DNA from: Mechercharimyces sp. CAU 1602
Lineage (GTDB): Bacteria > Bacillota > Bacilli > Thermoactinomycetales > JANTPT01
Length of the DNA stretch: 64,000 nucleotides
Assembly: GCF_024753565.1 (NCBI RefSeq)
Contig: NZ_JANTPT010000001.1
Span: forward strand, 1,197,969-1,261,968
Reading direction: 5' to 3'
A model generated the notes under the pieces. The model did not search any database. It saw only the letters and a list, made by a program, of their open reading frames with translations, and was not told the DNA's origin. Of this stretch, positions 23,423-47,817 are shown in pieces. The translations under genes were made by a program, and so were the position numbers. Each line of letters begins with the position of its first letter. Position 1 is the first letter of the stretch.

Positions 23423-24890
23423 GTAGAGCTTCCACCTCTCCCACCCATTCGCCATCGAGTGACCAGGTTTTAGGAGTGGTAATCTTCACATACGTCATTT
23501 TCCCAATCAAAGATTTGGGAGCCACAAAGTTAACCAGCTTGTTGCTACGAGTGCGTCCCGAAAGCACTTCCTCATTTTTCTTACTTTCACCTTCCACTAA
23601 CACTTCAACCACGTGACCTTGTAGTGCTTGATTCTTCCGCAGACTAATCTCCTCTTGCAAGCGATTTAAACGTTGCAGACGCTCTTTTTTCACTTCCATC
23701 GGAATATCATCTTTCATCTTGGCTGCTGGCGTTCCCTCGCGGGGGGAATAAATGAAGGTAAAGGCAGAATCATATTCCACTTCCCTCATTAATGAAAGCG
23801 TATCTTCAAACTGCTCATCTGTCTCCCCAGGGAAGCCCACAATAATATCGGTTGTCAGCACCACATTAGGAATAGCCGCTTTCATACGCTCTACCAAATC
23901 CAAATATTTCTCGCGTGTATACTTGCGCGCCATCATCTTCAAAATTTGAGTATTCCCTGATTGTGCTGGCAAGTGGATATGCTCTACCAGATTTCCGCCC
24001 TTTGCCAATACATCAATCAAGTGATTATCGAAATCACGTGGATGACTCGTCGTAAAGCGCACACGTGGAATACCAATCTGCCGTACTTCATCCATTAAAT
24101 CGCCAAAGGTATACGAAATATCGGAGAAGTCTTTTCCATACGCATTTACATTTTGGCCTAGCAACGTCACTTCTTGATAACCGAGGCGTGCCAAATGACG
24201 CACTTCATCTAATACATCCTGTGGGCGCCGACTTCGTTCCTTTCCTCTCGTGTAAGGAACAATACAGTACGTACAAAACTTATCGCACCCATACATAATA
24301 TTAACCCAAGCTTTTAGTCCGTCCTGCCTTACCTTGGGAATATTTTCTACAATGTCGCCTTCCTTGGACCACACCTCGATAACCATCTCTTTACTGAGTA
24401 ATGCATTGCGAAGTAAATGAGGGACACGATGAATGTTGTGCGTACCGAAGATAAGATCTACATGCTGATGCTTCTGCAAGATACGATTAACCACCGCTTC
24501 TTCTTGCGACATGCACCCGCATACCCCTAATATCAGGTCAGGGTTTTCCAATTTCAAATTCTTCATACGTCCAATTCCGCCAAACACTTTGTCCTCAGCA
24601 TTTTCACGAATCGCACATGTATTAAAGAGAATGACATCCGCCTGACGCTCTTCTTCTGTCTCTTCATATCCCATCTGTTCCAACATACCCGCAATCGTTT
24701 CGCTATCATGCACATTCATTTGACAGCCATACGTTCTAATCATATATTTTTTACCGGCACCAACACCGCGCATATCTTCTGGAATTTGTTCAAAGTCTAA
24801 CACTTGAACTTTTTCTTTTCCTCGTCTTTTCGCCGCCTTCAAATCAGGCTGTATAAAATAATGCTCCACATCTTTGATATTCTGACTCAT
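23415..24890 (-). CDS. miaB: tRNA-2-methylthio-N6-dimethylallyladenosine synthase MiaB
   Basis: 491 residues. A radical-SAM methylthiotransferase that completes ms2i6A37 on tRNAs first modified by MiaA. UPF0004 domain: [38 protein letters not shown] give three Cys for one Fe-S cluster. Radical-SAM motif [20 protein letters not shown] holds CX3CX2C for the second. The TRAM domain at the end includes VLVEGESKK. The extra 60-residue N-terminal extension is normal for Bacillus MiaB (YmcB). A strong sigma-A promoter lies about 85 bases upstream, and ricA follows with overlapping ends. Confidence 0.97.
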
Positions 24891-24974
24891 CTATGCTCAA
24901 CCCCTCTACTCGATGAGTTTGTCATATACATTTTACACTGAAGGATAGAAGTAACTAACGTAATTCATCCTTAT

Positions 24975-25003
24975 ATTATAACGAATCTAAGAGGGGTGGG
25001 CAA
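24975..25003 (-). promoter_or_regulatory. Sigma-A promoter of miaB-ricA
   Basis: Minus strand TTGCCC, 17 bases, TATAAT. It begins right after the terminator of the HTH-TPR/peptide cassette. Confidence 0.78.
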
Positions 25004-25008
25004 TGTAA

Positions 25009-25041
25009 AAAACCCGAACCGGATGGTTCGGGTTTTTATAT
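25009..25041 (-). terminator. Terminator of the HTH-TPR/peptide cassette
   Basis: AAACCCGAACC/GGTTCGGGTTT stem with a 4-base loop followed on the minus strand by TTTTTTAC, ten bases past the peptide gene stop. Confidence 0.9.
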
Positions 25042-25050
25042 CACAATCCC

Positions 25051-25191
25051 TTAAGGAAAGCTTGGATCTAGTTCTCTTTGATCAACCTTCATTTCAACTG
25101 CATGAGTAGTGGAAATATCAATCGTTGCCGTTGCTGATAATACTCCAATTGAGATACAAACAACTGTGATAAATACCTTAAATGATGTCAC
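25051..25191 (-). CDS. Short secreted pre-peptide, Phr-like signalling peptide precursor
   Basis: 46 residues, GTG start at 25191, stop at 25053-25051. It begins inside the last codons of the upstream HTH-TPR regulator in another frame (14-base overlap), as phr genes do with rap genes. The N-terminus MTSFKVFITVVCISIGVLSA has a Lys followed by a hydrophobic core. SATATID then offers a signal-peptidase-type AXA site, and the polar tail ends QRELDPSFP. An in-frame TAA sits two codons before the GTG, so this is the only sensible start. The ribosome site (AGAGAGG) is 12 bases away and weak, suggesting coupling to the regulator. By analogy with Phr, PapR or NprX, the active peptide would be the C-terminal 5-8 residues, re-imported by an oligopeptide permease. 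No homology was tested. Confidence 0.72.
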   Translation of the reverse strand: MTSFKVFITVVCISIGVLSATATIDISTTHAVEMKVDQRELDPSFP

Positions 25192-26503
25192 GGATTAATC
25201 CATCCTCTCTCATTTCTCTGTATACCTCAAACATATTCGATAGTAGGTGTTGAAATACCTTCTGATCCACATGTTGATAAGAATTAGCTAGCCTATATAG
25301 AATAGCATGCTTTTTTTTCTTAAGACCGCACTTCTCCGCTATCTGTATAGCTTCCTGATAATACAAGATAGCTTCATTATTGTTCCCTAACCTAACTTTT
25401 AAATCTCCCATTATCGTAAGAGCATCTATCAAATACACATCCGCCTTTAATTCTCGTCCCTGTACAATAGCGTCCTCTAAGAATAAATGGGCCCTTTCAA
25501 GTTCCCCCTTTCTCATATACAAAATCCCACACCTAGTTAATGTTGCAATGTATAGGTGATGTCTAGTATTGATTTTCTTTTTTAGTTTTACAGCAAAGTC
25601 TAAACAAACCTCTGCATTCTCTAAATCATCCATCCGCAAATATACAGATCCCATTGCATCCCACAAATCTAAAATCCGGATATATTCACTGGTCATTCTA
25701 GCACGTTCAAGTCCCTCCGTTCCTATCTCGATAGCTTCCTCATAATGATCTGTCTTTCTTAGAAGAGTAACCCTTTGTTGGTATAAATGCAAAAGAAGCT
25801 CAGGCTTTCTTATCTCTTCTTTTCTCTCCCAAATCTCGCTCACCAATGTAAATGCTTCTCCAACACGATTTAGATTTTCAAGATAAGAAATCTTATTAAT
25901 AATTAGGACATCCAAGAGTTGGCTTCTCTTTCCTTCTGGTACAAAAGTCTGTATACCTTTATCTGTAAATTGAATTGCCTGGTTTAATTCATTCGTAAAA
26001 AAGGAAATAATTCCAAGAAGACAATACGATGACGCCTCTATATTTTCAGTGTGGCAATTCCCTGATAGTCTAATAGCACTCGATATTTCTCTTTTAGCTT
26101 TTTCCCATTCACCTTTGCTTACATAACATTTCCCTCTCAAGAAATATACAATAGCTGCAAAAGGATGCTCTGTGCTCATACTATCATATTTATTTAATTT
26201 TTCAATAGCTTCTTCTATCTCCCCCACATCGCAAAATGATTCGATCGCAAGTAAATCTAGTTCAAGCTGTTTCAGCTCTTCCGCTACACCCGCTTTGAGT
26301 CTCTTCACCTCATCTTCATCTGTACCTAATTTCTCCATAAGATACTCTATTTTACCCGAGAGGACATGTGGAACTCCTCGTTCGATATTGCTAATTGTTG
26401 CCGGGGAGATATTTTGATCAGCTATATCTTCTAGGCGAAGACTTTTTTCTTTTCTAATTCTGCGAAGCAACTCTCCTAATTCTTTCGTGTGTAAACCTTT
26501 CAT
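25178..26503 (-). CDS. HTH-TPR regulator 2 (RRNPP-like)
   Basis: 441 residues. The N-terminal Cro/C1-type HTH (about 5-60) reads LGELLRRIRKEKSLRLEDIADQ and ATISNIERG. The rest is helical with repeated 34-residue TPR-like pairs, for example CYVSKGEWEKAKREISSAIRLSG, VYLRMDDLENAEVCLDFAVKL and ILYMRKGELERAHLFLEDAI, the last two thirds of the protein. This is the architecture of PlcR/NprR/Rgg-type peptide-responsive regulators. I prefer the second ATG (26503), 7 bases after AAGGAGG. It is a close paralogue of the gene 35 bases upstream and overlaps the peptide gene downstream. Targets are unknown; self-regulation is likely. A plain XRE regulator without peptide ligand remains possible. Confidence 0.85.
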   Translation of the reverse strand: MKGLHTKELGELLRRIRKEKSLRLEDIADQNISPATISNIERGVPHVLSGKIEYLMEKLGTDEDEVKRLKAGVAEELKQLELDLLAIESFCDVGEIEEAIEKLNKYDSMSTEHPFAAIVYFLRGKCYVSKGEWEKAKREISSAIRLSGNCHTENIEASSYCLLGIISFFTNELNQAIQFTDKGIQTFVPEGKRSQLLDVLIINKISYLENLNRVGEAFTLVSEIWERKEEIRKPELLLHLYQQRVTLLRKTDHYEEAIEIGTEGLERARMTSEYIRILDLWDAMGSVYLRMDDLENAEVCLDFAVKLKKKINTRHHLYIATLTRCGILYMRKGELERAHLFLEDAIVQGRELKADVYLIDALTIMGDLKVRLGNNNEAILYYQEAIQIAEKCGLKKKKHAILYRLANSYQHVDQKVFQHLLSNMFEVYREMREDGLIRDII

Positions 26504-26538
26504 CATTAGTCCTCCTTATTTATGTAAAATTTTGATCT

Positions 26539-27846
26539 TCAATAAACATTTATATTTATTTGTTGTAACTCATGTAAATCCGATAAATACTCTTGATGCT
26601 CCAAACTATTTAAATGATCTGGAAAATGCATCATTCTACTTAAAACATATTCTTGCTTATGCTTTATTTTCTGATTTTTCGACAGTTGCAATGCTCTTTT
26701 GAAGTAATTAATAGCTTCAGTATGCTTATCTAATAAGATTTTTATGTCCCCCATATATATAAGTGCATCCAGCAAGAAAACTTCTGCCTGTAACTTTTCA
26801 CCTAGTGATATCGCTTCACTGAGAATCTGTTCACTTTTTTTTACTTCACCTTTCCTCATTTTCATAATCCCGTACTTAGTAAGTGTAGATATATAAATAT
26901 AGTTTCTCTTTCTAACTCTCTTTTCGATTTTCATAGCAAATTCTAACGCAACCTCGGCATTATCAAGCTCATTCATCTTAAGATATACTGCCCCTATAGC
27001 ATCCCATAATTCTAAAATACGACGGTACTCCGTTGTCATCCCAGCCCTGTTCAGTCCTTCCATTCCTATCTCGATAGCAAGACTGTGATGATCCATTTTT
27101 CTTAATATGTTAACTTTCAATTGGTATAAATGAAGTAAAGTATCTGGCTTCTTTATCTCTTCCTTCTTACACCATATCTCTTCAGTTAAAGCCATTGCTT
27201 CACCTAACCGGTTAAGCTTATCAAGAAATGTAATTTTATTAACGATTAAGACATCAAGAACTTGGCTCCTCTTTCCCTCATTAACAAAAGCTTTTATCCC
27301 TTTATCAGTAACACTTATGGCTTCTTCTAATTCATTCGTAAAATAAGCAATCACACCCAATAAACAATACGAACATGATTCGATATTTTCAGCCGGATAT
27401 TTTGCAGATAGTTTTATAGAGGTATTTAGTGCTCTTCTCGCCGATTTCCACGCACCCTTCGCTATCAAGCACTTCCCCTTAAGATAAACAGCCACTCCGG
27501 CTAACGGGTGTTCATTATCTAAATTTTCGTATTTATTTAATTTGTACATCGCTTCATCTATCTCACCAATATCACAAAAAGATTCGATCGCTAACATATC
27601 GAGTTCTATCTTGTTTAGTTTTTCTCTAATACCAGATCGAAGTCTGATAATCTCCGATTCATTCGTACCCAGACGTTCTAAAAGGTACTGAACCTTCCCA
27701 GGCAATACGTGTGGAACTCCACGCTCAATATTGCTTACAGTAGCCGGGGAGATGTTTTGGTCTGCAATATCCTCTAAGCGAAGGCCTTTTTCCTTTCGAA
27801 TGCGACGTAAAATTTCACCCATCTCTTTTGTATGTAATCCGTCCAT
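26539..27846 (-). CDS. HTH-TPR regulator 1 (RRNPP-like)
   Basis: 435 residues, the first gene of the cassette. HTH at about 6-60 (MGEILRRIRKEKGLRLEDIADQ, ATVSNIERGVPHV) is nearly identical to its downstream paralogue. The TPR-like body is clearly related but more diverged, e.g. VYLKMNELDNAEVALEFAMKI and IMKMRKGEVKKSEQILSEAI. The pair therefore looks like a tandem duplication. The ATG at 27846 follows AAGGAGG by 8 bases. Unlike the second copy it has no peptide gene at its end; the 35 bases to the next start hold only a 9-codon frame without signal character. Its base composition is more AT-rich than the neighbouring housekeeping genes, consistent with accessory origin. Confidence 0.85.
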   Translation of the reverse strand: MDGLHTKEMGEILRRIRKEKGLRLEDIADQNISPATVSNIERGVPHVLPGKVQYLLERLGTNESEIIRLRSGIREKLNKIELDMLAIESFCDIGEIDEAMYKLNKYENLDNEHPLAGVAVYLKGKCLIAKGAWKSARRALNTSIKLSAKYPAENIESCSYCLLGVIAYFTNELEEAISVTDKGIKAFVNEGKRSQVLDVLIVNKITFLDKLNRLGEAMALTEEIWCKKEEIKKPDTLLHLYQLKVNILRKMDHHSLAIEIGMEGLNRAGMTTEYRRILELWDAIGAVYLKMNELDNAEVALEFAMKIEKRVRKRNYIYISTLTKYGIMKMRKGEVKKSEQILSEAISLGEKLQAEVFLLDALIYMGDIKILLDKHTEAINYFKRALQLSKNQKIKHKQEYVLSRMMHFPDHLNSLEHQEYLSDLHELQQININVY

Positions 27847-27884
27847 TCATCAGTCCTCCTTAGTAGAACTTTCCGTCAAATCTA

Positions 27885-27912
27885 ATTATATACTAATAAT
27901 TCGTTGTTTCAA
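27885..27912 (-). promoter_or_regulatory. Sigma-A promoter of the HTH-TPR cassette
   Basis: Minus strand TTGAAA, 16 bases, TATAAT, about 40 bases upstream of regulator 1. The region just upstream is very AT-rich with repeated TTAATT/AATTAA words that could be an operator. Confidence 0.72.
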
Positions 27913-28011
27913 TAGCTAGATTAAATGTAATTAAATCTTTTTTTAATTAATTTCAAATATGCATGAATTTTACTATATGAGAAATAGAACCATGTTCATG
28001 TATTTTCATTG

Positions 28012-28050
28012 AAAAAATAGAGGCCTGCCATTAGCAAGCCTCTATTTTTT
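28012..28050 (-). terminator. Terminator of tdh-kbl
   Basis: AAATAGAGGCTTGC and GCAGGCCTCTATTT pair around a short loop (minus strand), followed by TTTTTTC. Confidence 0.85.
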
Positions 28051-28053
28051 AAG

Positions 28054-29244
28054 CTAGATAATCCCCAATCTCTTTCCTACCTCAGAAAATATAGCGAGCG
28101 CCTCTTCCAGCTCTGCTTCGGTATGTTGGGCCGTCACAATGGTACGAACACGAGCGGCGTCTTTAGCTACCGTAGGGAAAACAATGGCTTGTGCATATAC
28201 ACCCGCGCTAAATAATTCATCCGAAAAACGGGAAGCGAGTGAGCCTTCACCGACAATCACCGGTGTGATCGGGGTATCGCTCTTACCTGTGTTAAAGCCA
28301 AGCTTTTCTAAACCTTGCTTAAAAAAGCGTGTATTTGACCACAATTTATCGACCAGCTCTGGTTCCTCTTCCAATACTTCAATCGCTGCATGGCAAGCCG
28401 CTGTAACGGCTGGCGGATGGGAGGTACTGAAGAGAAACGGACGTGCCCGTTGCACCATATAATCCCTCATTACTTGAGGACAAGCAACATATCCGCCTAA
28501 CACACCTACCGCTTTGGAAAGGGTACCTACTTGAATATGTACCCGGCCGTGCAGATTAAAGTGATCAACGGTACCACGCCCATTTTTACCAAGAACACCA
28601 CTTGCGTGAGCATCGTCCACCATGACGATCGCATCATACTTTTCAGCTAATTCCACAATCTGTTCGAGCGGAGCGATATCCCCATCCATACTAAACACGC
28701 CATCGGTTACAACTAAGCGCTTTCGTGCGGATTGAGATTCTTGCAGAGCTTTTTCTAAATCCTCCATATCCGCATGTTTGTAGATACGACGACCCGCTTT
28801 CGTAAGACGAATGCCATCAATAATGCTGGCATGGTTTAATTCATCGCTGATTACAACATCCTCCTTAGTAAGGATCGTAGCTAACACCCCTACATTAGCG
28901 GTAAAACCAGACTGGAAGACAAGTGCAGCTTCGGTATGTTTAAATTGTGCCAACTTCTCTTCAAAGCGTTCATGCATTGAAAAAGTACCCGCAATGGTGC
29001 GGACTGAACCTGTTCCTGCACCGTATTGCTCTACAGCAGCTATCGCCGCTTTTTGTAAGCGTGGGTGTGTGGTAAGTCCGAGATAGTTATTAGATGATAA
29101 CTGAATTACTTCCTTACCTTTAATCGTCACCTTCGCTCCTTGTTCCGACTCCAGTTCCGTCAGTGGACGAAAAATCCCTTCTAGTTTCCACTCCTCAATC
29201 TCTTTCGCCAGGTAAGAAAAATCTGCTGCAAGATCACGTTTCAT
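28054..29244 (-). CDS. kbl: Glycine C-acetyltransferase (2-amino-3-ketobutyrate CoA ligase)
   Basis: 396 residues, alpha-oxoamine synthase family (fold-type I PLP). It cleaves 2-amino-3-ketobutyrate with CoA to glycine and acetyl-CoA, the second step of threonine degradation after Tdh, which lies directly upstream. Seen: LSSNNYLGLTTHPRL, GAGTGSVRTIAGTFSMHE, VDDAHASGVLGKNGRG, and the PLP-lysine context QVGTLSKAVGVLGGY. I prefer the ATG at 29244 (nine bases after GGAGG) over the ATG at 29250. An 8-amino-7-oxononanoate synthase (BioF) has the same fold, but the tdh partner decides in favour of Kbl. It ends the tdh-kbl operon. Confidence 0.94.
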   Translation of the reverse strand: MKRDLAADFSYLAKEIEEWKLEGIFRPLTELESEQGAKVTIKGKEVIQLSSNNYLGLTTHPRLQKAAIAAVEQYGAGTGSVRTIAGTFSMHERFEEKLAQFKHTEAALVFQSGFTANVGVLATILTKEDVVISDELNHASIIDGIRLTKAGRRIYKHADMEDLEKALQESQSARKRLVVTDGVFSMDGDIAPLEQIVELAEKYDAIVMVDDAHASGVLGKNGRGTVDHFNLHGRVHIQVGTLSKAVGVLGGYVACPQVMRDYMVQRARPFLFSTSHPPAVTAACHAAIEVLEEEPELVDKLWSNTRFFKQGLEKLGFNTGKSDTPITPVIVGEGSLASRFSDELFSAGVYAQAIVFPTVAKDAARVRTIVTAQHTEAELEEALAIFSEVGKRLGII

Positions 29245-33421: not shown

Positions 33422-34369
33422 TCATAAGGTGCGACGGTAAAGATTCTCCCAATTTTTATACATCCATCCTTCTACTAGTGAGGAAGGGTATCGACGCAGC
33501 AGCTCCTCCGCTAATACTGCAAGCTTACCCGCATGCTCCAACCCATATATAAGTTCTGGGTAACCATCAAAATCTGATCCAAATGCTAGGTGATTCTCCC
33601 CACCCAAACGACAAATATGATCCACATGGCGAAGCAGATCATCTATCATGAGCGGTCTTTTTTCCACGTCGACAAACGGGGGCACAAATGTAAGTCCCAT
33701 CACACCATTCACCTTGATCAACGCTTCGATCTGAGTATCTCGTAAATTACGAACGTGTGGACACAAAGTATAACAGTTGGAGTGTGAAGCAATGACAGGA
33801 AGCTCATTTCTAACCTCTAGCACATCCCAAAAAGCTTTTTCAGACAGATGTGAGACATCAAGAATCATCTGTAATGACTCCATCTCTTCTACGACTTGTC
33901 GACCAAAAGCAGTTAACCCTCCACCCCTCTCCTCCAACGCTCCATCTGCCACCTCATTTGCATAATTCCAGGTCAAGCCCATCTGTCGGACTCCCAGACG
34001 ATATAATGTACGCAGGCGGTATAATTCCCCTTGTAGCGCATCTGCTCCTTCTAAGGCTAAGATGGCGCCCAATAGGGGTGATTGTAATCCATCCAAATCA
34101 GAGACTGTTGCGATCGCACGCACCTCTTTACCCTCACCTATAATCCGTTCATAAAAAATATCGACTTGTTGTAGTGCAACTTCCCACAATGCACTGGCAC
34201 TTACCGCTTCAGGTATATAGATAGCAAATACCTGTAGCTTAAGCGGAGCCATCCTAGCTGAGTCCAGCATCACATCCATCCGCTCTTCACGTTCCTCATA
34301 GAAGGAGAGCTTCTCTCCTGCTCGCCACATTTTACTTAGCACATCGCAGTGCCCATCAATCCAGACCAC
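33422..34369 (-). CDS. Membrane dipeptidase (peptidase family M19)
   Basis: 315 residues. A zinc dipeptidase of the renal-dipeptidase family. Metal ligands are visible in DGHCDVLSK near the N-terminus, LALEGADAL (bridging Glu), SHSNCYTLCPHVRNLRD (His ligands) and FGSDFDG (Asp). Also seen is LDVSHLSEKAFWDVL. There is no signal peptide, so it is probably cytoplasmic in spite of the family name. The start is GTG at 34369, nine bases after AAAGGAG; the ATG four bases upstream is out of frame. Located between spoVS and korA, as in several Bacillus genomes. The natural peptide substrate is unknown. Confidence 0.9.
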   Translation of the reverse strand: MVWIDGHCDVLSKMWRAGEKLSFYEEREERMDVMLDSARMAPLKLQVFAIYIPEAVSASALWEVALQQVDIFYERIIGEGKEVRAIATVSDLDGLQSPLLGAILALEGADALQGELYRLRTLYRLGVRQMGLTWNYANEVADGALEERGGGLTAFGRQVVEEMESLQMILDVSHLSEKAFWDVLEVRNELPVIASHSNCYTLCPHVRNLRDTQIEALIKVNGVMGLTFVPPFVDVEKRPLMIDDLLRHVDHICRLGGENHLAFGSDFDGYPELIYGLEHAGKLAVLAEELLRRYPSSLVEGWMYKNWENLYRRTL

Positions 34370-37475: not shown

Positions 37476-38168
37476 CTATGATTTTATTATTTTTTCATGG
37501 TTGCTGTCAAGAATTGAGGAAGGAATAATTTGGGTTTTGCCCCCTTTGATCTGCACATGGAATACCTGGTCAGCCGCTTCTGTCAAATGCGGGTTGTGTG
37601 TAACCAGGATCATTTGCCGATCAAACATACGCCCTGTCGACTGTAAAAATTCGAGCATATTCATCACATACTCACTACTCACATGCTTCCCTGGTTCATC
37701 CAATATGATCGGTCCCTGTGGACGCGGATCAAAGGTTTCGACCATAGCGATGCGAAGCGCAAGTGAAGTAATATCAACAATCCCACCCCCACGTGCATCT
37801 TGAGGCTTATTCCGGATTTCCTGTCCCTCCCATTCTGTCACCACATAAAACTCTGCCCATGGCTTCCCGCTATGTTCTGTTAATTCGATCTCAAAACGGA
37901 AAGCAGAACCAAAGATAAATTGTAATGCATTTGTTACTAACGTTTCGATCTGTTCCTTAGCTTGTTTGCGGGCATAGTCAGATGACTCCTGCAGTAATAG
38001 ACGAACCGATTCATATAAATCCAGTTGAACTTGCTTTTCCTTTATTTCCTGCTCTATGTCAGCAAGCATCCCTGCTAAGGTCTCTCGCTTGGCGTCGCGA
38101 CGCACCCATTCTTGCTTTGCCTCGGCTAACTGTTGGCGCAGTCTCTCCTCTCTTTCTCTGCGATCCAT
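37476..38168 (-). CDS. C-terminal half of a split Rad50/SbcC-like ATPase
   Basis: 230 residues. It lacks Walker A but has the other ABC/SMC-type ATPase parts. A signature-like GGGIVDITSLALRIAMV lies at about 127-143, Walker B GPIILDEP at 152-159 with the catalytic Glu, and an H-loop LVTHNPHL around His191. The first 80 residues are a basic/acidic coiled coil. In Rad50, SbcC and RecN these parts share one chain with Walker A; here Walker A is on the protein encoded by 38437-39873. The two should associate to form a working ATPase head (inference). It is the last gene of the operon, starting two bases after the small coiled-coil gene. Confidence 0.8.
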   Translation of the reverse strand: MDRREREERLRQQLAEAKQEWVRRDAKRETLAGMLADIEQEIKEKQVQLDLYESVRLLLQESSDYARKQAKEQIETLVTNALQFIFGSAFRFEIELTEHSGKPWAEFYVVTEWEGQEIRNKPQDARGGGIVDITSLALRIAMVETFDPRPQGPIILDEPGKHVSSEYVMNMLEFLQSTGRMFDRQMILVTHNPHLTEAADQVFHVQIKGGKTQIIPSSILDSNHEKIIKS

Positions 38169-41116: not shown

Positions 41117-43168
41117 CTACAGTCCCAGCTCTCCCTCACTCCCACCCCGCACCCCTCGTGGCCCCCGTGGCCCACGTCTCCCCCGTGCTCCCCGATTCCC
41201 TCTCGTTCCCGTAGCACCGGTTGCTCCCGTAGCTCCGGTTGCTCCGGTCGGACCTGTTGCTCCTACCGCAGACCGTAACCCTACCTTCGTCACAAATACA
41301 TCATCATTACCTGCATTTTGCGACTGAAAAGCGTTCACTGTAACAGGAAAATTGGTAGATCCAGTACGCCCAGTAAAGTAGGCACTCTCCACATTATCGA
41401 CCGCAACAGCATTTCCTCTATCATCTAGGCTCCCTCCCAGATACGATGAAAAAGAGATTCCTTGTCCAGAATAGCTCAACTGCGTCACAAAAGCATTACT
41501 ATTACCAGATAAGCTGTCCTGAAATGCATCTGATGTAACAGGAAAATTAGTTGACATGGTTTCTCCTGTCACCCATGCTGACCCAAAGGAGTCAACCCCT
41601 AATCCAAATGCTCGATCAACCCCAAATCCTCCTAGGTAAGTAGAGTAAATAAGATGATCCCCTGATGGATTAACCTTGGTTATAAACACTGAGTTAAGAC
41701 CTACTGCAGGGATTACGGTTTGAAATGCATTGTTGGTAATCGGAAAATTGGTTGACTGTGTCTGTCCTGTCACATATGCATTTCCGCCCCCATCTATATT
41801 AATTGCGAAAGCAGCATCGCTACCAAGACCACCTAAATAAGCGGAATACTGAAGGGATGAACCCACCGCGTTTAGCTTAGTAACAAAAGCATCTGACCCT
41901 CCTCCAAAAATGGTTTGAAATGCGGCTGTTGTAATCGGAAAATTGGTTGATTGAGTCACTCCCGTAATAAAAGCCTGACTATTTTCGTCAAGAACGATTC
42001 CTCTACCCGCATCCCCACCATTTCCCCCGATATAAGTGGAATAGAGAAGTGAAGTCCCTGTGGTATTTAGCTTTGTGACAAAAGCATCCGACGCTCCTCC
42101 AAAAATCGTTTGAAAAGCATTCGAGGTTATTGGGAAGTTGGTGGAGAGCGTTTCCCCTGTCACATAAGCATTATTCGTTTCATCAATCACAATCCCAAGT
42201 CCACGCTCTCTTCCTGATCCACCCAAATAAGTGGAATACACAAGCGAACTTCCTGTGGCATTTAATTTGCTAACAAAAGCATCGCTTGTCGTAGGTGCAG
42301 CTATCGGCATAGTCTGGAACGCGCCTGAGGTTACAGGAAAATCAGTAGAGAGAGTAATACCCGTCACATAAGTATTTCCAAGAGTATCTACTGCGATATC
42401 GGTTCCACCATCAATTAAACGACCTCCCAAGTAGGTAGAATAGAGAAGAGAACTTCCTGATTTATTAAACTTACTTATAAATACATCATCCAATCCAGCA
42501 TTCATCGTCTGAAATACACCCGAGGTGACGGGAAAGTCAAGCGAACATGTGTCCCCAGTTATATAAGCACTCCGCGCTGAATCGACCGTAATACCATTTC
42601 CCTCATCTCCACCCGTTCCCCCCAAGTAAGTGGAGTAGAAAACGATAGGATCAATTAGCAGGAGGCAGTTAGGGTCATAATGGTCACCGTGAATTGTAAA
42701 ACCAATTGTCCCATCATTATAGAGCTCAAATCCGGTTTCAATCATTTTCTTTTCTTGGTTTATCCACTGGAAACTAACTGGTTTCCTTTCACACAGAACG
42801 CCACACGAAGTATAGATCAACAAATCGCCATCTTCAGTCAACTTTACTTCGTCCCCGCCCTCATAACGCAAGCGAATATCCCCCAAACAAGCATCTGGAT
42901 GCACGATTAGATCGTATTTTAGTTGCCTTTTCTTATCCATGAACACAACGTCAATCCCTGGCCACACGTTATCATAGACAACACGTTCAAATCCACTAAC
43001 TTGCTCGTTACTCTTCTGCGGTACTATACCTTGACGTGTTTGCAAGAAACGTAGCATAATCGCAGCCTTCTCACACAAACGAAGTTGCACCCCTGTTGGG
43101 TAGAAAGTACACTTCATTCCCTGCTCAGCGATAGCATACTTTTTGCTTCGTACTATGTGCGTATCCAC
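41117..43168 (-). CDS. SBBP beta-propeller protein with collagen-like tail (paralogue 1)
   Basis: 683 residues, GTG start at 43168 behind GGGAG. Residues about 1-175 form an N-terminal domain (with VVYDNVWPGIDVVF and GFTIHGDHYDPN) commonly found before SBBP repeats. Seven repeats of about 60 residues follow, each with a YSTYLGG-type opening, ITVD..GNAYVTG and TNFPVT..AFQT, consistent with a seven-bladed propeller. The last 48 residues are collagen-like: about 13 Gly-X-Y triplets, first GAT/GPT then Arg-rich (GNRGARGRRGPRGPRG). There is no signal peptide, so it is probably made in the mother cell for the spore surface, like BclA-type proteins (inference). It has its own terminator. Confidence 0.85.
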   Translation of the reverse strand: MDTHIVRSKKYAIAEQGMKCTFYPTGVQLRLCEKAAIMLRFLQTRQGIVPQKSNEQVSGFERVVYDNVWPGIDVVFMDKKRQLKYDLIVHPDACLGDIRLRYEGGDEVKLTEDGDLLIYTSCGVLCERKPVSFQWINQEKKMIETGFELYNDGTIGFTIHGDHYDPNCLLLIDPIVFYSTYLGGTGGDEGNGITVDSARSAYITGDTCSLDFPVTSGVFQTMNAGLDDVFISKFNKSGSSLLYSTYLGGRLIDGGTDIAVDTLGNTYVTGITLSTDFPVTSGAFQTMPIAAPTTSDAFVSKLNATGSSLVYSTYLGGSGRERGLGIVIDETNNAYVTGETLSTNFPITSNAFQTIFGGASDAFVTKLNTTGTSLLYSTYIGGNGGDAGRGIVLDENSQAFITGVTQSTNFPITTAAFQTIFGGGSDAFVTKLNAVGSSLQYSAYLGGLGSDAAFAINIDGGGNAYVTGQTQSTNFPITNNAFQTVIPAVGLNSVFITKVNPSGDHLIYSTYLGGFGVDRAFGLGVDSFGSAWVTGETMSTNFPVTSDAFQDSLSGNSNAFVTQLSYSGQGISFSSYLGGSLDDRGNAVAVDNVESAYFTGRTGSTNFPVTVNAFQSQNAGNDDVFVTKVGLRSAVGATGPTGATGATGATGATGTRGNRGARGRRGPRGPRGVRGGSEGELGL

Positions 43169-45673: not shown

Positions 45674-47668
45674 TCAACGTTCATTCGATCCCGAGATCCC
45701 TCTTGCCCCCCTCGCCCCACGTGGGCCCCGTTCACCTGTAGCCCCCGTCGGTCCCGTCGCCCCGCGCACAGCCTGCCCAGGAAAGACCAGACTAAACAAA
45801 AATGCATCCGCATTCCCACCAAACTGTTGCTGAACCGCATCTAGCGACACAGGAAAGTTTGCTGACGAAGTAAACCCGGTCATATATACGTTTCTAAACT
45901 CATCCACTACAATATCTTCACCCGCCTCAGATGCGATTCCACCTAAGTATGAGGAATAGGTTAAGCCTGATCCGATAGAACTTACCTGAGCGATAAAAGC
46001 ATTTTGCGACCCTCTTCGACGACTCTGAAACGCATCCGGGGTAACAGGGAAATTTTCTGATTGGGTCAAACCCGAAATCCAGGCATTTTGAAAAGAGTCT
46101 AACGCAATACTTAAGCCATCATCAATCCCTCCGCCACCTAGATAAGAAGAATAGAGCAACGCTGATCCTGTTCGATTGAACTTACTGACGAACCCATCTA
46201 CATTTCCCCCAAAATTGGGTTGAAAAGCACGTTCAGTGGGAAAAGCAGTCGATGATGTACAACCGGTAACATAGGCATTCCCATCGGAATCGATGGAGAT
46301 GCCATGCCCCTCTGTGATATCGATAAAGTTGTTCCCACCTAAAAATGTAGAATAGAGAAGGGTGGTCGCAGTTGCATTTATTTTAGAGATGAAAGCAGAA
46401 GAAATTCCTCCTAGTTGCGTTTGAAACGCACCGGCTGTAACAGGGAAATTACTGGCCAGTGTACCTCCAGTCACATAAACATTCCCGCTATCATCAAGAG
46501 CAAGCGCACTTATCAATTGCGTCTCATCACTCCCACCTAGATAGGTGGAGTACAACAAAGAGGAGCCTCTAGCATTAAATTTACTAATCGTACCCGCGAA
46601 ATTAGGGGACTGGCCAGTAAAACTGGTTTGGATCACGCCTGATGTAACTGGAAACTCCTTCGAACTACTCGCTCCGGCTACATAAGCGTTCCCTTCCGCA
46701 TCCACTTTAATGTCTGCCCCTTGTGTCACCCCATTTGCTCCTCCAAGAAATGTAGAATAAAGAAGGGAACTCCCGCTTGCGTTTAGCTTGGTCACAAACG
46801 CATCTGAACCCGCTAGTTTACTTTGAAACGCTCCAGAGGTAATAGGGAAATTAGGGGATTGTGTCGTCCCTGTCACATAAGCCCTTTGCTCCTCATCCAC
46901 TTCAATCCCACATCCAAAATCTACTCCTATTCCTCCTAAATAAGTAGAGTAAAGCAGGGACGATCCTCCTGGGTTCACTTTTGTAATAAAAGCATCTGAA
47001 CCTCCACGCAAACGAGTTTGAAATGAACCCGAAGTAACTGGAAAATCATTAGAAAAGGTGCGTCCTGTTACATACGCGTTCCCTTCTAAATCGACGGCAA
47101 TGCTTTTCCCCGAATCAAACTCAGTCCCTCCCAAATAGCTAGAATAACGTACCACTGGATCAATCAAGAGAGGACGCTTTTGATCGTATTCTCCGTTTGG
47201 TTCAAACCCAATACTGCCATCTGAACGAACATTATATTGAACAGCTACGATCTGTTTAGACAAAGAGTGATCAAACTGCATAGCAACCGGGATTTCCTCG
47301 ATGAATACCCCTGTGTTGGTTGCAATACACAGCCTTCCTTCCTCATCGAGGTAAGGAGCCTCTTCACTTTCAAAAGAAAACTGAATTGCCCCTAATCCCT
47401 CTGAGTCCGCCTGTATGACCCAATCTGATTTCCAACCAATTGCCGTACGATAATACCATAAGTCAACCCCTCGCCAGAGTGAAGAATAAAGTACTTCTCC
47501 CCTGCTACTCTTCGTTCGACTTACACCTTCGCTTCCAATAAATCGCATTCTAACCATAGCACCCGTCACTAGATCTTCATATCCCACACTATCTTCATAA
47601 AAATGTACACATACTGCTTTCAAACCCATCTGTTGAGTGGCTACATCTTCTTCATAAAATAAATCTTT
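45674..47668 (-). CDS. SBBP beta-propeller protein with collagen-like tail (paralogue 2)
   Basis: 664 residues from the ATG at 47668, six bases after GGAGG. The open frame reaches 47785, but that lies in the upstream terminator. This start also aligns in length with paralogue 1. Layout is the same: an N-terminal domain of about 170 residues (LYSSLWRGVDLWYYR, SIGFEPNGEYDQ), seven repeats opening with YSTYLGG or YSSYLGG, and a collagen-like end with about nine Gly-X-Y triplets (GATGPTGATGERGPRGARG). No signal peptide or membrane segment is seen. It lies on the other side of recA-recX from paralogue 1; the two have clearly diverged in sequence. Confidence 0.85.
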   Translation of the reverse strand, partial: KDLFYEEDVATQQMGLKAVCVHFYEDSVGYEDLVTGAMVRMRFIGSEGVSRTKSSRGEVLYSSLWRGVDLWYYRTAIGWKSDWVIQADSEGLGAIQFSFESEEAPYLDEEGRLCIATNTGVFIEEIPVAMQFDHSLSKQIVAVQYNVRSDGSIGFEPNGEYDQKRPLLIDPVVRYSSYLGGTEFDSGKSIAVDLEGNAYVTGRTFSNDFPVTSGSFQTRLRGGSDAFITKVNPGGSSLLYSTYLGGIGVDFGCGIEVDEEQRAYVTGTTQSPNFPITSGAFQSKLAGSDAFVTKLNASGSSLLYSTFLGGANGVTQGADIKVDAEGNAYVAGASSSKEFPVTSGVIQTSFTGQSPNFAGTISKFNARGSSLLYSTYLGGSDETQLISALALDDSGNVYVTGGTLASNFPVTAGAFQTQLGGISSAFISKINATATTLLYSTFLGGNNFIDITEGHGISIDSDGNAYVTGCTSSTAFPTERAFQPNFGGNVDGFVSKFNRTGSALLYSSYLGGGGIDDGLSIALDSFQNAWISGLTQSENFPVTPDAFQSRRRGSQNAFIAQVSSIGSGLTYSSYLGGIASEAGEDIVVDEFRNVYMTGFTSSANFPVSLDAVQQQFGGNADAFLFSLVFPGQAVRGATGPTGATGERGPRGARGARGISGSNER

Positions 47669-47765
47669 CATCTCTACCCTCCATTCTCCATTACACTGTA
47701 ATTTATGCCGACCATAAGCTACGTGTTTCATTTTCAGAGGATATAAACTACCTAACCTGGAGAAA

Positions 47766-47817
47766 TAAAAAAACTGCCTTTCCACTATCTAATGAGTGGA
47801 AAGGCAGTTTTTTTTGT
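47766..47817 (-). terminator. Terminator of the pgsA-cinA-DEAD operon
   Basis: AACTGCCTTTCCACT and its complement AGTGGAAAGGCAGTT around a 9-base loop, with T runs of seven or eight on both sides. Confidence 0.92.

Follow-up and report, generated by a model that had tools for sequence, protein, structure and literature searches.

The window, a stretch of 64,000 nucleotides from the genome of Mechercharimyces sp. CAU 1602, holds two regulator genes, A and B, followed on the minus strand by an ORF of 46 codons (Table 1). Both A and B pass the Pfam cut-offs for HTH_31 and several TPR models, and they are the two tandem HTH-TPR regulators of the original prediction, which was made from the sequence alone. 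The small gene and the end of B share exactly 14 nt (25178-25191), as had been claimed, and the strong terminator expected at the end of the unit was found as well. The gap between A and B is 32 nt and holds no peptide gene of A's own. All elements of the proposed cassette of two regulators and a peptide are present, but it is only B, and not A, that forms a direct pair with the peptide gene.

Table 1. Genes and predicted elements of the unit (positions in the window).
Feature	Position	Strand	Remarks
Regulator A	26539..27846	-	HTH (Cro/C1 type) and TPR receptor, 435 aa; tandem paralog of B without peptide gene
Regulator B	25178..26506	-	442 aa; HTH with about nine TPRs; the receptor that pairs with the propeptide gene
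Propeptide gene	25051..25191	-	46 codons, GTG start, 14-nt overlap with the end of B
Predicted mature signal LDPSFP	25054..25071	-	last 6 codons; exact ends predicted
Shine-Dalgarno-like GAGAGGA for the propeptide	25203..25209	-	inside the coding end of B
Sigma-A-like promoter TTGAAA-16-TATAAT	27885..27912	-	11/12 consensus matches; consensus match only
Imperfect 21-bp palindrome	27918..27938	.	immediately upstream of the -35 box; speculative candidate for an operator
Intrinsic terminator ending the unit	~25007..25037	-	G+C-rich hairpin with T-run

The sigma-A promoter of the original prediction was recovered at the same place, and it is the best of nine promoter-like sites in the region, but the number of such sites was not above that of shuffled sequence. 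The palindrome next to it can only speculatively be called an operator. The pattern for the shuffle test was written from the site itself and, with three mismatches allowed, gave about 0.8 matches per shuffled window, and the site stands in an AT-rich region with other inverted repeats. The palindrome was not seen upstream of the paralogs, and no common operator was found there; the 9-mers common to these upstream regions are promoter elements. An Rfam search of the window gave no matches.

The arrangement of a receptor gene with an overlapping small ORF is more than chance. Using identical criteria, a small ORF whose N-terminal half is hydrophobic was found to overlap the gene end in 31 of 67 homologous receptors as compared to 1 of 159 other genes, with a Fisher p-value (2e-18) that is indicative only, the paralogs being non-independent. 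This is not the picture that the original prediction had named as counting against it, with homologous regulators lacking any conserved small ORF downstream. In a wider set, where a C-terminal Pro was required, 61 of 122 distinct receptors had an overlapping ORF, and one relative frame is shared by 55 of these 61 ORFs. A small signal-bearing ORF is a recurrent companion of the homologous regulators, but not a constant one, the other half of the receptors being without a detectable peptide gene. A Shine-Dalgarno-like motif within the last 15 receptor codons was present in 46/61 receptors with a peptide gene and in 5/61 without (p = 1e-14).

For a closer view of the small products, 62 propeptides from across the order were picked by eye. 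A Lys or Arg stands near the N-terminus in 61 of them, and Pro is found at position -4 in 57 (shuffle mean 6.6, maximum 17). There are 57 distinct C-terminal hexapeptides among the 62, so the variable C-terminal residues looked for are there, with a fixed Pro. The export signal of the window's propeptide, a basic and hydrophobic N-terminus, was judged by hydropathy alone, and agrees with the Lys plus hydrophobic core that had been described for it. The 46-aa protein gave no informative match in Pfam and NCBIfam, and it has no close ortholog from which selection at the codon level could be read. Internal copies of the C-terminal unit were observed in 9 of the 62 propeptides, for instance SEPGGL and GNPGEY with four copies each, and the number of copies can be as high as six. 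That the C-terminus is what is processed into the signal, as has been described for Rap-Phr (PMC11343458), is indicated most clearly by these repeats. The mature signal of the window's propeptide is predicted to be about six residues long, LDPSFP, with its ends as we infer them. The repeated putative pheromones, by locus, were SAFPGP x6 (L087), GNPGEY x4 (L014/L043, Marinithermofilum abyssi), QSEPGGL x4 (L035), SEDPGMS x3 (L099), SEPGGL x3 (L028) and GDPIHT x2 (L091).

At least 12 homologous receptors are encoded in the 2.93 Mb genome. Eight of them, B included, are accompanied by a small ORF whose start lies 11-14 nt ahead of the receptor stop codon, and B and its peptide gene are one of eight receptor-peptide pairs in this genome. 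The junction between receptor and peptide reads ATGAAATCATTTAA in several paralogs, the receptor ending with ...EII-stop and the peptide beginning with MKSFK.... The last six residues of the eight propeptides are, give or take a residue, LDPSFP (B), ISTPSE, GDPSIS, AEPSST, AEPSKS, SDPEHV, TEPIVR and YEPDGP. Four receptors are without a small ORF, namely A and those of the loci L004, L010 and L012.

The AlphaFold model of B, built with 35 homologs, has a pLDDT of 91.7 and shows the HTH and, after it, many helix pairs in a row, with residues 436-442, which are partly encoded by the overlap, disordered. The top rows of the VIA-align comparison were apo NprR (Z 28.6), Rap-CSF (27.2), Phi3T Rap-pheromone structures (26.9) and the NprR-NprX complex (26.4). 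Other TPR proteins reached a Z of 25-26, only a few units below the top, so the fold supports peptide sensing but does not by itself prove it. The viral fold library returned generic TPR proteins only. PDB sequence matches in the HTH region included Rgg and ComR structures, and an NprR chain was absent among the best 60 of 180 PDB sequence matches.

We consider it very probable that B and the 46-codon gene form a quorum-sensing pair of the RRNPP/RRNPPA type that works as follows. A single transcript from the promoter at 27885-27912 would carry A, B and the propeptide gene, and the propeptide would be translated from the ribosome-binding site within the last part of the B gene. Going by what is known of the class, the hydrophobic N-terminal signal would export the propeptide, which would be trimmed to the C-terminal peptide of about six residues, and an oligopeptide permease would re-import it; OppA-type binding proteins (PF00496) are present in the genome. 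The peptide would then bind in the TPR superhelix of B and alter DNA binding by its HTH, with a direction of regulation that is presumed. Regulator A may read the peptide of B, that of another system, or none. The recurrent ORF, the N-terminus, the fixed Pro, the repeats and the fold all support the RRNPP-type reading of the original prediction, and the likeness to the logic of Rap-Phr and NprR-NprX that it noted agrees with NprR and Rap as top matches of the B model. As a minor observation, one PF00496 match (G000:C4:53802-54743) is split in two pieces within one 606-aa open frame.

It could be argued that A and B are HTH-TPR transcription factors sensing something else, and that the small ORF is there by chance or takes no part in signalling, given that half of the homologous receptors have no peptide ORF, that TPR domains bind many ligands, and that unrelated TPR proteins also match the B model. 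This is difficult to reconcile with overlapping hydrophobic ORFs in 31/67 receptors but 1/159 other genes, with their fixed relative frame, with the Pro at -4 and with the pheromone-like internal repeats. A chance ORF was rejected on these grounds, and the explanation as a whole appears highly improbable. Even harder to believe is that the ORF encodes a small membrane protein, or a hydrophobic toxin under HTH regulators as in a toxin-antitoxin pair, despite its short length, its hydrophobic N-terminal half and its place beside an HTH protein. What is conserved is the pattern of the polar C-terminal unit, repeated up to six times in relatives, and this is what a processed signal and not a membrane toxin would show, and the best fold matches of B are NprR and Rap. 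The toxin-antitoxin pair was therefore rejected.

The role of A within the quorum-sensing unit is a separate matter. In the tree A and B are sisters (support 99/98), with a branch of 0.51 for A and 0.23 for B. The end of A has neither the embedded ribosome-binding site nor the tail common to the paralogs, and these losses, together with the mere 32 nt to B and the longer branch, suggest that A is probably an orphan duplicate of B, a receptor without a peptide gene. The long branch and the lost end features fit a relaxed constraint, though a function is still compatible with them. It is conceivable, if somewhat doubtful, that A is a working second receptor for the peptide of B, in a hetero-oligomer, as a decoy or as a second output, which would be compatible with signalling by the pair. 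The two are adjacent sisters in the same orientation, the reading frame of A is intact, and their first 60 residues, which contain the HTH, are about 83% identical, but a branch about twice that of B and the changed end speak against such a role.

The pair is a real, uncharacterised member of a well-known signalling class. It shares with RRNPP systems a receptor with a predicted TPR superhelix and an HTH, an adjacent small propeptide gene, and a propeptide of basic, hydrophobic and variable parts. By Pfam, AlphaFold and VIA-align, B has the HTH plus nine-TPR architecture of the NprR subfamily. As in NprR-NprX of the Bacillus cereus group, the receptor is followed by a small propeptide, here putatively exported, and NprR is the best structural match of B, both apo and, with a lower Z, in complex with NprX. 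The NprX peptide, SKPDIVG, also contains a Pro, but the peptide code and the lineage are different here. Rap-Phr of Bacillus and its phages has a similar nine-TPR superhelix, short C-terminal pheromone and tandemly repeated pheromones, and the Phr105 pheromone ERPVGT has its Pro at -4, as here (PMC11343458). Unlike A and B, the Rap family is without a DNA-binding domain. In AloR-AloP of the Paenibacillaceae, an HTH and TPR receptor is followed by a propeptide gene of 32-50 aa that sometimes overlaps the receptor 3' end, there are many pairs per genome, and orphan receptors occur (PMC7425212); the Mechercharimyces genome resembles it in its many pairs, in the propeptide gene directly after the receptor and in its probable orphan receptor. 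The published AloR search matched essentially Paenibacillaceae only (PMC7425212), and B gave no Brevibacillus or Paenibacillus record among plasmid records at E 1e-5. A structural phylogeny divides the nine-TPR receptors into NprR/Rap and AloR/AimR clans (PMC12700828).

With NprR-NprX, Rap-Phr and AloR-AloP known, the kind of cassette is not new. The RRNPP_detector survey reports strict, HTH-bearing RRNPP candidates in biosynthetic gene clusters of Thermoactinomycetaceae (n = 4; PMC10075063); these belong to the same family, and the likeness is to the survey's description, not by sequence. PMC10075063 was the one relevant paper found on quorum sensing in Thermoactinomycetales. We give even chances to the proposal that the Thermoactinomycetales have an RRNPPA receptor subfamily of their own, as yet unnamed and separate from every experimentally validated one, in which a cell has many parallel private channels (eight pairs here), the ribosome-binding site is inside the receptor gene and the hexapeptides share an xxPxxx code. 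The cassette leaves the known mechanism of the class unchanged. What it adds to peptide quorum sensing is a lineage that had not been characterised, and a code that is compact and can be tested, with one Pro-centred hexapeptide per receptor. With eight different hexapeptides in a genome of 2.9 Mb, and with tandem pheromone repeats in its relatives, this lineage lends itself naturally to studies of how receptors become specific for a peptide, or orphaned, once they have been duplicated.

Named homologs occur in Marinithermofilum, Paludifilum, Melghirimyces, Kroppenstedtia, Thermoactinomyces, Laceyella and relatives. The propeptide of Marinithermofilum recurs unchanged in genome G007, which belongs to the order of the window. 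At E 1e-15, among 250 genomes taken from the class, 22 had matches, all of them from the order of the window, and of the 41 other genomes of this order in the relatives search none was without a match. The genes around the unit were identified by NCBIfam as tdh, kbl, miaB, mutS and mutL, and the unit itself lies between kbl and miaB (window 24890-28054). These two are direct neighbours in 11 of 29 relatives, where kbl stands upstream of miaB at a distance of up to about 0.75 kb and no receptor gene separates them. A receptor within 1.5 kb upstream of miaB was not found in any of the 29. The cassette is thus an insertion or a duplication specific to this lineage, set into a block of housekeeping genes. 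None of its neighbour genes suggests a target. There is no support for an origin from a phage or a plasmid, as B had no match among phage records and two distant matches only among plasmid records. One distant homolog of B (24% identity) is on the Staphylospora marina plasmid NZ_CP034119.1 (29577-31007; L165 2399-3829), where, judging from the annotation only, no small gene is directly downstream. Elsewhere in the window, the ORF at 37476-38168 had no match in Pfam and the one at 33422-34369 none in NCBIfam, and two large proteins encoded near each other (41117-43168 and 45674-47785) carry SBBP beta-propeller repeats and a DUF7948 domain.
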